Source: Bacteroidales bacterium (GTDB lineage: Bacteria > Bacteroidota > Bacteroidia > Bacteroidales > UBA3824). Taken from it: DNA of 44,199 nucleotides. Position numbers and translations under genes: made by a program. The notes beneath the pieces were generated by a model. That model was not told the origin of the DNA and searched no databases. It saw only the letters and a program-made list of their open reading frames with translations. The DNA lies in NCBI GenBank assembly GCA_016286055.1, contig JAEERW010000021.1, positions 1-44,199 of the forward strand. The letters run 5' to 3'. Of this stretch, positions 16,091 through 44,199 are shown piece after piece (positions within the stretch are counted from its first letter, which is position 1; the number at the start of each line of letters is the position of its first letter).

Positions 16091-16122
16091 CTTGGCGTAA
16101 TATTCTACCGTATGTAATTTTG
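16091..16122 (+). promoter_or_regulatory. Regulon promoter P1 (nifH-like unit)
   Basis: TTTTCTCTTGG with CTTGG at 16091-16095, 23 bases, then the TTTG of TAATTTTG (16115-16122). It is one of six such promoters in the window. Transcription should start near 16129, giving a leader of about 38 bases. Confidence 0.75.
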
Positions 16123-16166
16123 CGCCGTAATAAAAATTTAAACACAATCAAAAAATTTCAAAGAAA

Positions 16167-17015
16167 ATGAGTGAAATTAGACAAATTGCAATTTACGGCA
16201 AAGGCGGTATTGGAAAATCAACTACAACACAGAATCTTACCGCAGGATTGGTAGAACACGGCAAAAAAGTAATGGTAGTGGGTTGCGACCCCAAGGCCGA
16301 TTCTACACGTCTACTTTTGGGCGGATTGGCTCAAAAAACTGTTCTTGACACTATTCGCGACGAGGGCGAAGATATAAGTCTCGATAGAATTATGAAGACT
16401 GGTTTTGGCGGCACACGTTGCGTAGAATCAGGCGGACCAGAACCCGGCGTGGGTTGCGCAGGTCGTGGTATCATCACCTCTATCAATATGTTAGAGAATC
16501 TCGGAGCATACACCGACGACCTTGATTATGTTTTTTACGATGTGCTTGGCGACGTTGTCTGCGGCGGTTTTGCAATGCCTATCCGCGAGGGTAAGGCCAA
16601 GGAAATCTACATCGTGGCTTCGGGCGAAATGATGGCTCTCTATGCTGCCAACAACATCGCCAAAGGTATTTCGCGTTATGCAAAAACTGGCGGCGTGCGT
16701 CTTGGAGGTATCATCTGCAACAGCCGCAAGGTAGACCACGAACTTGACCTTTTGCGTGCTTTTTCAAAGGAACTTGGCACTCAATTGCTTTACTTCGTAC
16801 CTCGTAATAATATTGTGCAACACGCTGAAATTCATAAACAAACGGTTATTCAATACAAACCCGATTCAGATCAAGCACAAGAGTATAGAAATCTTGCCAA
16901 AGCGGTAATCGATAATCAAAGTTTTGTAATTCCTACACCTATGACCCAAGAACGTTTGGAGGAAATACTTATGGAATACGGCTTTATGGATTCTGCCGAC
17001 GACTATAAAATCTAA
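16167..17015 (+). CDS. nifH: NifH-like Fe protein (dinitrogenase-reductase family)
   Basis: The 282-aa protein keeps every key NifH residue, even the numbering: Walker A (GKGGIGKS, 11-18), switch I (DPKADS, 41-46), cluster ligands C97 (GVGCAGRG) and C132 ([12 protein letters not shown]), and R100, the ADP-ribosylation site in regulated nitrogenases. As a homodimer it would hold one 4Fe-4S cluster and pass electrons to a component-1 partner with ATP hydrolysis. Only one such gene is visible, against two component-1-like pairs, so it may serve both. It starts from promoter P1 and is followed after four bases by a NifX-like gene. Sequence alone does not separate true NifH from the reductases of nitrogenase-like enzymes; the neighbourhood favours the latter. 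Confidence 0.92.
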
Positions 17016-17019
17016 GAAA

Positions 17020-17442
17020 ATGTACAAAATTGCAGTGGCAACATCCGACGGCGTAAATGTAGATTTGCATTTCGGCAGCACCGAGGTATTTTTGATTTAC
17101 AAAGCCGAAGGTGAAAAGTATGAATTTTTGGAGAGCCGCCGTGTAATCGACTCTGCCAACGCCCAAATAACAGGCTGCAACTGTGGCGAAGGCGGAGGAA
17201 ACGGTTGCGGAAACGGCGGTGGCAATGCCTGCGGCGGAGGTGAAAAATCCGAAGCCGTAGAAATTCTCTCCGACTGCCGTGCTGTGGTTTGCGCCAAAAT
17301 CGGACGAAACATTCTCAAACAGTTGGAACTCCGCGCCATATCTTCGTTTGATGTTTCAATTCCTGTAAAAGAGGCACTTGAAAAGATTGTAACTTATTAC
17401 AACAAAGTGGATAACCGTCTTTACGGGGCTAAGAATAAATAA
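17020..17442 (+). CDS. NifX/NifB-C-terminal-like cluster-binding protein with Cys/Gly-rich insert
   Basis: The 140-aa protein belongs to the dinitrogenase iron-molybdenum cofactor family (NifX, NifY, C-terminal NifB). It begins MYKIAVATSDGVNVDLHFGS, with the conserved HFGS loop. In the middle (residues 53-74) is a glycine-rich insert with four cysteines (C53, C55, C63, C71), which could bind metal or an Fe-S precursor. The fold resumes with DCRAVVCAKIG. Such proteins carry or protect metal clusters during assembly of nitrogenase-type cofactors. It is translated with the nifH-like gene. No NifB radical-SAM enzyme is visible in the window, so this is the only assembly factor seen. Confidence 0.85.
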   Translation: MYKIAVATSDGVNVDLHFGSTEVFLIYKAEGEKYEFLESRRVIDSANAQITGCNCGEGGGNGCGNGGGNACGGGEKSEAVEILSDCRAVVCAKIGRNILKQLELRAISSFDVSIPVKEALEKIVTYYNKVDNRLYGAKNK

Positions 17443-17578
17443 GATTGTTTGTATTTTTTATCGTCAGGAAAAGTACGTTTTTCAGTTTATTGAAGAATGT
17501 GCTTTTTTTATGAAATACTAATAAAACTTAATTATTATACCATAAATTAGCTAGTGTCAAGCTCCGTTATTTTTTTGT

Positions 17579-17610
17579 TTTGCTGGTTTTATCAAAAATC
17601 CATATATTTG
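17579..17610 (+). promoter_or_regulatory. Promoter of the cation/proton antiporter gene
   Basis: TTTG at 17579-17582, 20 bases, TATATTTG at 17603-17610: a textbook Bacteroidetes promoter. It lacks the pyrimidine-CTTGG element of the sulfur/nitrogenase-like units and so serves as an internal comparison. Confidence 0.75.
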
Positions 17611-17638
17611 CGCTCGAAAATAACATCAAACATAAATC

Positions 17639-42349: not shown

Positions 42350-42366
42350 AGATTTTACATTAATTG

Positions 42367-42399
42367 GCGTATGGGCGTACCTTGTGTGCGCCCCTATGC
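42367..42399 (+). terminator. Terminator after cysK
   Basis: A 14-base stem (GCGTATGGGCGTAC against GTGCGCCCCTATGC, one mismatch) with a 5-base loop, followed by AATTTT. Confidence 0.75.
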
Positions 42400-42494
42400 A
42401 ATTTTCCAAATTTCCTCATTATTTTCTCAAATCCAAATAATATTTTCTCCTTACTCTATCTGTTTTAGCAAATTATTCCAATCTTTATCTTCTT

Positions 42495-42526
42495 CTTGGA
42501 CAAACCTTCCTATCAAACTACCTTTG
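42495..42526 (+). promoter_or_regulatory. Regulon promoter P6 (second component-1-like pair)
   Basis: TCTTCTTCTTGG with CTTGG at 42495-42499, 23 bases, then the TTTG of TACCTTTG (42519-42526). Predicted start near 42533, leader of about 30 bases. Confidence 0.8.
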
Positions 42527-42562
42527 CAATCGAAAAGAAAATGAATATTAAAACTAAATAAA

Positions 42563-44026
42563 ATGTCAGTAAATTTAAGCAATTCTAATGTTGCGGTGCG
42601 CGAAACGAGGATTGGGTCAATTACCGGTTACATCGGTTCGCTGAAAGATTTGGCAGAAAAATCTGAGTGCGGAACTCTAAAAGGTTGCGCAAGATGTTTC
42701 TCACAATCAAGCACTTGTCTTTCGCTTTGCGGACTATCGCAACTCGCAGGCATCAGGGACGTGGCAATCATCCATCACGGTCCATCGGGCTGTTCGGTAA
42801 CGAGTAGCAACAGTTACTATATGTCGAAAGTGATGGCCAAAAAACGCGGCGTAACGTCCGACACCGTGTATGTGGGTACCGATATGAACGAAAAAGACAC
42901 AATTTTCGGCTCAACCGAGGGTCTTCGCAAAATCATCATCGAAACCAACCGCCGCTACAAACCCAAAGCAATTTTTGTGTCAAGTAGTTGTGCCACAGGT
43001 ATTATCGGTGAAGACATCGACAGCATTGTTGACGAAGTAAAAGACGAAATCCCTGTGCCCGTGGTGGCTGTTCACTGCGAGGGTTTCAAGAGCAAAATTT
43101 GGGCTACGGGATTCGACATTTCAGACCACGCTGTGTTGCAGGCAATTGTGCAGAAACCTCGCCCCAACGCTCCGAAAAACAACAAGATCAACTTCAAAAA
43201 CTTCTTTGAATCGGCACGTCCCGAAATCATCGAAATGTTTAAGAATTTTGACCTCGAACCCGTTTTCCTCTATTGCAACTCCACGGTTGAGGAACTTTCA
43301 ACTCTCTCGGAAAACCTTGCAACTACCTGTATTTGCGGCACTTTGGGTAACTATCTCGGCAACGCTCTCGAAGAAAAATACGGCGTGCCATACGTCCGTT
43401 CTATCAATCAATGCGGCATCACGGGTTTTGAAACTTGGCTGCGCGAAATAGGCCGAGTTACCCACCGCGAGGACAAGGTAGAAAAATACATTGCCGAACA
43501 ACGTGCCATTTATCTTCCTCAGATAGAAGAAGTTAAGAAACAACTTGAAGGCTTGACGGCTGTGCTTGGAATGGGTCCCGGCTACACGTTTGAGGTGTCG
43601 CGAGTTTTGAACGAACTCGGCATCAAGGTGGTTTGGGCATTGGCTTGGCATTATGATAAGAAATATGAAAACGGCGACGTGCCTCCCTCAATGAAATACC
43701 TGTTGGACAACAACATAGAATTTGAAACTTCGGTTGCCGACCAACAGAATTACGAGGTAATGAACATTCTCAACAAGTACAAACCCGATATGTACCTTTC
43801 ACGGCATCCAGGCTCTACGGTTTGGGCTATAAAGAACGGAACTCCTGCGATTTACGTGGCCGACGAGTATATGATTTTTGGCTACAAACACACTTTGGAA
43901 TTTGCCAAAACAGTGCTCGACACTATCCGCAACCGCAGTTTTGAGGCGAACCTTGCAAAACGCACAAAACTTCCCTACACCAAATGGTGGTACGAACAAA
44001 ATGTTGATAAATTCTTTGAAAATTGA
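42563..44026 (+). CDS. Nitrogenase component-1-like protein, NifD-type (second pair)
   Basis: The 487-aa protein is a paralogue of the one at 25163. P-cluster-type cysteines are C52, C77 (HHGPSGC) and C143 (SSCATGIIGEDID), at spacings like those in NifD. HCEGF (171-175) is conserved. C258 (CICGTLGNYLGNALEEKYGVP) corresponds to the cofactor cysteine C275 of NifD. At the place of the cofactor histidine the sequence reads YVADEYMIFGYKH, so no histidine is present. Extra N-terminal cysteines (C36, C42, C45) resemble those of the first-pair protein. It may be the catalytic subunit while the other pair is a NifE-like scaffold, or the reverse; this cannot be decided here. It starts from promoter P6; the partner gene begins 96 bases downstream. 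Confidence 0.88.
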   Translation: MSVNLSNSNVAVRETRIGSITGYIGSLKDLAEKSECGTLKGCARCFSQSSTCLSLCGLSQLAGIRDVAIIHHGPSGCSVTSSNSYYMSKVMAKKRGVTSDTVYVGTDMNEKDTIFGSTEGLRKIIIETNRRYKPKAIFVSSSCATGIIGEDIDSIVDEVKDEIPVPVVAVHCEGFKSKIWATGFDISDHAVLQAIVQKPRPNAPKNNKINFKNFFESARPEIIEMFKNFDLEPVFLYCNSTVEELSTLSENLATTCICGTLGNYLGNALEEKYGVPYVRSINQCGITGFETWLREIGRVTHREDKVEKYIAEQRAIYLPQIEEVKKQLEGLTAVLGMGPGYTFEVSRVLNELGIKVVWALAWHYDKKYENGDVPPSMKYLLDNNIEFETSVADQQNYEVMNILNKYKPDMYLSRHPGSTVWAIKNGTPAIYVADEYMIFGYKHTLEFAKTVLDTIRNRSFEANLAKRTKLPYTKWWYEQNVDKFFEN

Positions 44027-44122
44027 CAATGAACAATTGACAGTTGACAATTCAGAGAACATTAATATACACACAATTGATAATTGTCCATTGTCAATTA
44101 TCAATTGTCAATTCAAAACAAT
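44027..44122. repeat. AT-rich inverted repeats in the spacer of the second pair
   Basis: Units such as TTGACAATGAACAATTGACA and their complements (CAATTGTC, ATTGTCCATTGTCAA) face each other across about 40 bases. The motif type is the same as between cysH and pstS. Confidence 0.7.
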
Positions 44123-44199
44123 ATGGCAAAGATATTAGACAAACAAAGATATAAATGCGCTTTGGCGGCAATGCAGACCGTTCAGGCGATAGAGAGAGC
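44123..44199 (+). CDS. Start of a nitrogenase component-1-like partner (second pair), cut by window end
   Basis: Only 25 codons are visible: MAKILDKQRYKCALAAMQTV, then QAIER. C12 in YKCALAAMQTVQAIE aligns with C19 of the first-pair NifK-type protein (YACAVGATNTVVAIK), the first P-cluster-type cysteine. Position, spacing and this motif make it the beta-type partner of the gene at 42563. The rest lies outside the window. Confidence 0.75.
   Translation, partial: MAKILDKQRYKCALAAMQTVQAIER

Follow-up and report, generated by a model that had tools for sequence, protein, structure and literature searches.

Two candidate nitrogenase-family C-S reductases and a nitrogenase-type Fe protein in a sulfur gene cluster of a Bacteroidales bacterium

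Contig JAEERW010000021.1 of a Bacteroidales bacterium (GTDB UBA3824; assembly GCA_016286055.1) carries a group of nitrogenase-like genes interspersed with genes of sulfur metabolism. The window analyzed here is the whole of this contig (C15; 44,199 bp), one of 36 contigs in a genome of 4.18 Mb that is 99% complete; we infer that the bacterium is closely related to rumen species. The products of open reading frames (ORFs) were assigned by profile scans (Pfam, TIGRFAM/NCBIfam) and by comparison with the chains of solved structures. The genes of interest encode a NifH-type Fe protein, a NifX-like protein, relatives of the alpha (D) and beta (K) subunits of nitrogenase component 1, and three enzymes of cysteine metabolism: a cystathionine beta-synthase (CBS)-type enzyme, a cystathionine gamma-lyase/synthase (CGL)-type enzyme, and the cysteine synthase CysK. 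These family scans bear out most of the gene set named in an earlier sequence-only reading; the adenylylsulfate (APS) reductase CysH, which that reading placed among the same genes, lies outside the stretch it described. It also named two component-1 pairs, of which D1/K1 is whole and D2/K2 is cut, as the contig ends 25 codons into K2.

Judged from its sequence, the D1/K1 pair is a match for MarDK, the catalytic component of methylthio-alkane reductase (MAR). Among solved structures, D1 scores 616 bits to the MAR chain 9fmg_A against 143 for the next nitrogenase, and K1 scores 497 bits to MarK (9d9u_C, a chain present in 9fmg too, the 9d9u chains being near-identical) against 67 for the next chain; 9FMG is the MAR complex of Rhodospirillum rubrum (PMC12552129). 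The kinship trees cover the D and H proteins, and the kinship of K1 rests on its bit scores. The D tree has 39 rows, nine of 48 having been left out beforehand (eight further D1 or D4 members and the NifK-like row of locus L128); the residue table includes these nine, and VnfD, AnfD, BchY, CfbD, and NfaD are absent from the tree. D1 and R. rubrum MarD form a clade (100/100) outside the Nif clade. D1 keeps all of the MAR residues checked: Cys270, His429, Arg428, Cys73, Gln74, His194, Trp195, Phe199, and His375, numbered as in PMC12552129. The cysteines of D1 that align with P-cluster ligands are also kept, and those of K1 align with the cysteines of MarK (the P-cluster is assigned by alignment).

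D2 is 34% identical to D1, and its closest solved chain is again MarD (9fmg_A, 305 bits), the next nitrogenase scoring 117. Fourteen D2 rows form a clade (100/100), which two relatives of 47-50% identity join at 99/99; the NifD and NifE rows form a clade (100/99) that includes neither D1 nor D2. The VnfD and AnfD profiles give the D proteins of the window 79-90 bits, with cut-offs above 820. All 16 rows (the 14 of D2 and the two relatives) keep Cys270, His429, Arg428, Trp195, Phe199, His375, and Gln74, and the window D2 and all 13 further D2 rows keep the P-cluster-aligned cysteines together with Cys270, Arg428, and His429. The pair of Arg428 and His429 has been called a possible hallmark of MAR (PMC12552129). 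On these residues, D2 is a MAR-like protein of a second clade, which keeps the predicted cluster ligands of MAR and differs from it in two pocket residues; because its joint grouping with MAR is weak in the tree, D2 is called MAR-like here and is not filed as MAR. Profile scores, the tree, the residues, and the lack of NifE and NifN rule out membership of D1K1 or D2K2 in the canonical Mo, V, or Fe nitrogenases. Isethionate reductase (Isr) is ruled out by its cysteine pattern, since D1 and D2 keep their cysteines.

The Fe protein of the window is of the nitrogenase type: it scores 480 bits to NifH of C. pasteurianum versus 283 to MarH. In the H tree it falls inside the nitrogenase NifH clade (100/100), along with 11 others, of which 10 come from D2 loci and one lies beside D1 in L031. 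MarH, the H protein of Candidatus Chlorohelix, and the H protein of L125 (a Bacteroidales locus with a D of 50% identity to D2) make up a separate group (87/89). NifH of the same type adjoins D1 in L130, a locus from the same genus as the window, and in L126, from another family, a NifH near D1 is 83% identical to the partial NifH of L168. D1/K1 and D2/K2 seem to share this single nitrogenase-type reductase, and there is a reported precedent for an Fe protein shared among several D/K pairs of group IV (PMC9147875). The simplest history would be the acquisition of a nitrogenase Fe protein by a MAR-like system.

Other parts of the proposed system lie elsewhere in the genome. A single copy of nifB lies on contig C26, flanked by a SufS-like gene and by cysD, so the absence of nifB stated in the sequence-only reading holds for the window and fails for the genome. 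The C26 ORF scores 258 bits to TIGR01290, under the cut-off of 344 for a profile that describes a longer, two-domain protein, and it shows the motifs HPC, CxxxCxxC, AGPGD, and CxxCRADAxG, which we take to be marks of NifB. The genome therefore holds, in this ORF, a radical S-adenosylmethionine (SAM) maturase of the NifB/MarB type, as is assumed for MAR. The NifH family (PF00142) has one strong match in the genome and three others below 53 bits. Another D/K copy, diverged and about 87% identical in DNA, lies on contig C5 (2025-4881) and is followed by a Cys/Met-type pyridoxal phosphate (PLP) enzyme and then by a PatB-type C-S lyase. The C5 copy is D2-type (L011); its D gene (2025-3493) is split into two ORFs, through either decay or an assembly error, and relatives have intact copies. 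The PF00148 matches in the genome are these three D/K loci only, and because nothing else is found by this profile, the genome is taken to be without nifE and nifN as well as nifDK. The search of the genome for the homocitrate synthase NifV gave one LeuA-like match of 396 bits, below the cut-off, and one weak match.

In relatives, the genes of the window form a compact cluster. In genome G418 they run on one strand in the order cysK-nifB-nifX-nifH-nifX-D1-K1-CBS-CGL-methyltransferase-outer-membrane-like-MetQ-MetN-MetI-ThiF-161-aa protein-cysK-D2-K2-PatB, pieced together from two adjoining stretches. The stretches of G419 and G417, which start at nifH and nifX, respectively, have the same genes up to K2, except that here ThiF and the 161-aa protein precede the outer-membrane-like gene. 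The G419 proteins are the basis for assigning the methyltransferase, ThiF, and a DsrE-like protein, the MetN, MetI, and MetQ profile scores are under the NCBIfam cut-offs, and the profile scan matched no family to the outer-membrane-like protein. Those cluster genes of the window (Table 1) that were compared are 84-94% identical to their G419 homologs, the exceptions being NifX (53%) and the shortened methyltransferase. Unrelated genes break up the window cluster at 17.6-25.0 kb (a transporter, a DNA methyltransferase, and others) and at 28.5-33.7 kb, and both insertions are absent from the corresponding places in G417-G419. By this comparison, the window cluster is a broken-up version of the compact G418-type cluster. 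No MetQNI or ThiF gene was found in the window at the cut-offs used.

Table 1. Genes of the window, with position, strand, and the basis of each assignment
Feature	Position	Strand	Basis
APS/PAPS reductase CysH	7601..8305	+	NF002537 282 bits, TIGR02055 272 bits, both above cut-off
NifH-type Fe protein (ATP-dependent reductase)	16167..17015	+	TIGR01287 460 bits, above cut-off
NifX-like cluster-binding protein	17020..17442	+	PF02579 49 bits
D1, predicted MarD ortholog, catalytic alpha subunit	25163..26725	+	PF00148 258 bits; 616 bits to 9fmg_A
K1, MarK-like beta subunit	26902..28293	+	PF00148 199 bits; homologs start at 26944
CBS/cysteine-synthase-type PLP enzyme	34092..35066	+	TIGR01137 342 bits, under cut-off 510
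CGL-type PLP enzyme	35186..36340	+	PF01053 502 bits; after CBS in L167-L169
LCM/TIGR00027-type SAM methyltransferase, shortened	37349..37777	+	residues ~51-165 of the relatives' 275-aa protein missing
CysK-type cysteine synthase, directly before D2	41360..42349	+	TIGR01136 327 bits, cut-off 344
D2, MAR-like catalytic alpha subunit, second clade	42563..44026	+	305 bits to 9fmg_A
K2, first 25 codons, cut by contig end	44123..44199	+	96% identical over 25 residues to L168 K2

Single features of the gene order recur in other loci. A NifX-like gene lies between nifH and D1 in L130, L167, and L168, the CBS-type gene comes after K1 in L136, L167, L168, and L169, and a full-length methyltransferase follows CGL in relatives. 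The closest solved relatives of the window CysK are cysteine synthases. In a member of the same genus (G011, locus L129), CysD, CysH, CGL, CBS, K1, and D1 are encoded together on a contig of 20 kb, where other genes separate CBS from K1. This synteny with CBS, CGL, CysK, MetQNI-like, and CysD/CysH genes supports a role in organosulfur assimilation.

Two large TIR-TPR proteins with a weak match to a SAVED-TIR model are encoded between K1 and CBS (28474-33651). The genes around the cluster include ones of defence type: a Type II-like DNA methyltransferase (19946-21370, minus strand), a GmrSD-like nuclease, a PDC-S02-type nuclease, and a Fic protein (11256-13181, 2464-3585, and 13166-14194, respectively). 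PstS/PstC- and PstA/PstB-like transporter genes (8395-15993) adjoin CysH, and PstA/PstB-like genes adjoin CysD in L129; a role of these transporters in sulfate uptake is conceivable. An Rfam scan of the window at gathering cut-offs gave no match. A riboswitch or T-box upstream of the operon was considered and rejected, as Rfam scans of 14 relatives gave seven tRNAs and one thiamine pyrophosphate (TPP) riboswitch and no T-box or SAM element.

The D2 gene is found well beyond the window. A contig scan for D2 relatives matched at least 595 stretches, at least 554 of which encode relatives, and the best 80 were kept. All of these 80 are D2-type, are 80-95% identical to D2, and come from three phyla; because the loci were selected for similarity to D2, D1-type loci were not sampled. 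The records are titled Bacteroidales, Lachnospiraceae, Clostridiales, Ruminococcus, Treponema, and similar, many of them from ruminant or gut samples, and the labels of metagenome-assembled genomes among them may be wrong. The ORF caller used gave a D2 ORF in 77 loci. CysK lies directly upstream on the same strand in 67 of the 77 and within three genes upstream in two more, and one locus is at a contig edge; K comes directly after D2 in 75, and NifH is present in 59 and NifB in 54. Recurrent neighbors among the 80 loci are a PatB-type lyase (34), a Cys/Met PLP enzyme (31), LysR (31), and an Rrf2 regulator (22), for which CymR is the second-best profile; SsuC/TauC-like (20) and SsuA-like (17) importer parts score below their cut-offs. 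In Lachnospiraceae, Butyrivibrio, and other taxa, a single operon holds nitrogenase-type nifH together with the genes for MAR-like D/K subunits and cysteine genes.

A D2- or D1-type match is present in 11 of the 18 genomes of the window's genus. At E <= 1e-30, seven of the 393 genomes of the order show a match of some type: five D1- or D2-type (G080, G167, and three members of the genus, counting that of the window), one Isr-like (G315), and one nif-type (G134). The Isr-like locus (L127; G315 C120, 1-7515) encodes NifH, D, and K, and its D keeps one of three P-cluster cysteines. The locus in G134 (L128; C31, 1-12000) is likely a true nif cluster, with NifH, NifD-/NifE-type proteins, two further D/K homologs, and NifB.

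Sixteen of the 80 D2 genomes were chosen for a whole-genome check with PF00148, which gave 57 matches and 30 classified loci. All 30 are D2/K2, D1/K1, D4/K4, or a D2 relative, and none is NifD or NifE; matches without a locus (e.g., a weak pair in G420 and a third match in G416) were only partly classified. In five of the 16 (G407, G408, G410, G411, and G421; completeness not given) there are exactly two matches, both of D2K2. G407 is Lachnobacterium bovis DSM 14045 and G408 is KHP2, both isolates by title. The further pair type, D4K4, is found in D2 loci of many Bacillota and some Spirochaetota (L042 14230-16975, L048 14541-17298, L112 12358-15104, and others). D4 keeps three P-cluster-type cysteines and Cys270, has no Arg-His loop, and has Cys for Trp195 (14 of 14 rows); its eight rows in the D tree form their own clade (99/100).

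In 28 of 56 D2 loci (e.g., L047 6682-6751), a cloverleaf resembling tRNA-Cys is found close to the start of nifB; it is seen in none of 18 other D2 loci scanned, several of which are too short to show the place; six of the 80 were not scanned. The loci with the element are L042, L043, L045-L047, L050, L052, L053, L055, L056, L062, L069-L071, L075, L076, L079, L080, L083, L086, L089, L095, L100-L102, L108, L109, and L112, and in 23 of these 28 it sits after cysK. All 28 elements lack U73 (18 have G and 10 have A), three encode CCA, and one has the anticodon ACA; an alignment of 26 of them has double changes at nine of 18 predicted pairs. An ordinary tRNA-Cys with U73 is present in two D2 genomes: G422, which has the element, and KHP2, which is without it. 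The element is possibly regulatory or a non-canonical tRNA.

Several known systems resemble the one described here. The closest is MarBHDK of R. rubrum (Group IV-C; PDB 9FMG, PMC12552129), to whose MarD and MarK the D1/K1 pair is nearest. It differs in that the Fe protein of the window is not MarH and nifB is off the contig, and the G418-type cluster holds CBS, CGL, MetQNI-like genes, and CysK. A MAR-type plasmid operon of Candidatus Chlorohelix (nifB-nifX-nifH-D-K; NZ_CP128401.1, L119; Chloroflexota), whose D is 41% identical to D1, is adjoined by an O-acetylhomoserine (OAH) sulfhydrylase and an ABC importer. In contrast, its reductase is MarH-type (501 bits to MarH vs 287 to NifH), and one D/K pair is seen in 19 kb. 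IsrBHDK of Rhodobacter capsulatus, reported also in intestinal bacteria, is another nitrogenase-like enzyme of organosulfur assimilation (PMC11423573); IsrD reportedly keeps one of three P-cluster cysteines and has no equivalents of Cys275 and His442, whereas D1 and D2 have the cysteines. NfaHDK of Group IV-A (Endomicrobium proavitum, Heliophilum), in a gut setting for Endomicrobium, is also described as a D/K pair without NifEN, and NfaH is reported to group with MarH, unlike the NifH of the window (PMC9147875). In the rumen Bacteroidales species Prevotella bryantii, NifE-like and NifN-like genes, D/K homologs without His442, accompany a Group III nifH, and their function is stated to be unknown (PMC4356463). 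By that description, the P. bryantii set is probably the same system as the one found here. MoFe nitrogenase (NifHDK) shares the NifH and NifB homologs and the P-cluster cysteines, but the D proteins of the window stand outside the Nif clade, NifEN is lacking, and Trp and Phe replace Gln191 and His195.

The cluster probably encodes two nitrogenase-family C-S reductases that serve sulfur assimilation and share one set of helper proteins. What is present are NifB, NifX-like proteins, one NifH, and D subunits with P-cluster-aligned cysteines, Cys270, and the Arg428-His429 pair. In MAR, which has neither homocitrate nor Mo, a NifB-type maturase is assumed to supply the [Fe8S9C] cluster; the substrates that MarDK reduces together with MarH are dimethyl sulfide, ethyl methyl sulfide, and methylthioethanol, and the products are methanethiol and a hydrocarbon (PMC12552129). 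By analogy, NifB would build the [Fe8S9C] core, which NifX-like carriers would pass straight to the D/K pairs with no NifEN, Mo, or homocitrate step, and NifH would supply electrons with ATP hydrolysis. D1K1 would then cleave methylthio-compounds (R-S-CH3 -> RH + CH3SH), the methanethiol would enter methionine, and CBS and CGL would move the sulfur to cysteine. More tentatively, D2K2 may reduce another organosulfur compound, and the neighboring cysteine synthase may use the sulfide or thiol derived from it.

The sequence-only reading had proposed kinship with MAR, and the match of D1/K1 to MarDK makes this stronger than it was put. Its suggestion of a related but distinct enzyme suits D2, with its second clade; the reductase departs from MAR in another way, as a nitrogenase-type NifH. 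The phylogeny and the comparison of neighborhoods that it called for place the D proteins outside Nif and tie the relatives to sulfur genes. It had named, as evidence to the contrary, D/K proteins inside Nif with nifB, nifE, and nifN elsewhere in the genome; only nifB is there.

Several observations weigh against the proposal of two C-S reductases. MAR uses a MarH-type reductase, whereas the one strong Fe protein of this genome is NifH-type, so that NifH is assumed to be compatible with MarDK. Two residues of the MAR pocket are changed in the 16 rows of D2 and its two relatives: His194 to Ile (Val in L088) and Cys73 to Ser, Gly, or Ala (Asp in L088). The 14 D2 rows have Ile and one of Ser, Gly, and Ala, the window D2 having Ile and Ser. 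The joint grouping of MAR with D2 is weak (56/28), a sister position of D2 to Nif is not rejected (approximately unbiased test, p-AU 0.128), and a grouping of D1 with Nif is only nearly rejected (p-AU 0.0525). In seven of the 77 D2 loci, CysK is missing from the three genes upstream, and in the window genome the cluster is interrupted and nifB is on a separate contig.

The tree result and the true NifH-type reductase would also suit N2 fixation by D2K2 as a Group IV-A (Nfa-type) nitrogenase lacking NifEN; such fixation has been claimed for E. proavitum, which is reported to incorporate 15N2 with group IV genes only (PMC9147875, PMC11257099); NifH sequences of human feces near Lachnospira and Butyrivibrio have been interpreted in that sense (PMC4995403). 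This function for D2K2 is nevertheless unlikely, given that the 14 D2 rows have Trp195 and Phe199 at the positions of Gln191 and His195 in NifD as well as Arg428-His429, and that NifE and NifN are absent from the window genome and from the classified loci of 16 others. Moreover, the recurrent neighbors, where clusters were annotated, are largely sulfur, transport, and regulator genes, with no PII or ammonium gene. The position of CysK in 67 of 77 loci, the importer parts resembling SsuA and TauC near some loci, and the precedent of Isr, a nitrogenase-like enzyme acting on a sulfonate (PMC11423573), could also point to inorganic or oxidized sulfur (sulfite, thiosulfate, or sulfonate) as the substrate, with sulfide going straight to CysK. 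This, too, we regard as unlikely, because D2 keeps three P-cluster-aligned cysteines and Cys270, unlike IsrD as reported, because the MAR-type ligands point to thioethers, and because the MetQNI-like genes, CBS, CGL, and PatB point to the metabolism of thio-amino acids.

A single gene cluster holding two D/K pairs, one nifB, and one nifH would also suit a role of D2K2 as scaffold or maturase, in which it would assemble the metal cluster of D1K1 in the way that NifEN serves NifDK. Since D2K2 is the sole pair in five of the 16 genomes checked and D2 keeps the Arg-His ligand pair of the catalytic MAR site, this role is very improbable. The window copies might instead be decaying and inactive: the methyltransferase is shortened, two insertions of unrelated genes have occurred, the D frame of the C5 copy is broken, and K1 reads as two ORFs in G011. 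Inactivity is improbable, however, in view of the open frames of NifH, NifX, D1, K1, CysK, and D2, the high identity of most cluster genes to their G419 homologs, and the ligand residues kept in D1 and D2. The reading as two C-S reductases is preferred to all four.

The idea of a sulfur role has a precedent, as Group IV-A MarHDK-like genes have already been tied to sulfur metabolism (PMC10418091). No description of the exchange of nifH or of a cysK-linked D2 operon was found in a literature search that lay mostly outside the subscription journals. A wider proposal, which we rate as somewhat short of probable, is that D2K2 represents an uncharacterized class of nitrogenase-family C-S reductase in which a captured true NifH replaces MarH. 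This class would have spread almost unchanged across gut Bacteroidota, Bacillota, and Spirochaetota and would supply cysteine synthase directly; what gut and rumen surveys record as "cluster III" nifH would largely reflect it, and the tRNA-Cys-like RNA of the operon may be a regulator in many Bacillota.

The gene nifH is the standard marker of nitrogen fixation, and here a helper gene could be mistaken for a sign of it. The cluster III NifH of human feces has been read as N2 fixation, the His ligand being missing in some of the NifD proteins (PMC4995403), and rumen-wall nifHDK transcripts have been read in the same way (PMC5787071). A displacement of the His to another loop, as in MAR, would explain the missing NifD ligand in the fecal sequences, which are known to us by description. 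If C-S cleavage with a captured Fe protein is the correct reading, the detection of nitrogenase-type nifH in a gut survey would not by itself indicate N2 fixation, and gut and rumen nifH data would need to be re-read. These bacteria would then be candidate sources of methanethiol, sulfide, and small hydrocarbons. One family of Fe proteins would serve both N2 reduction and C-S cleavage, providing a natural test of which part of the enzyme sets the reaction.

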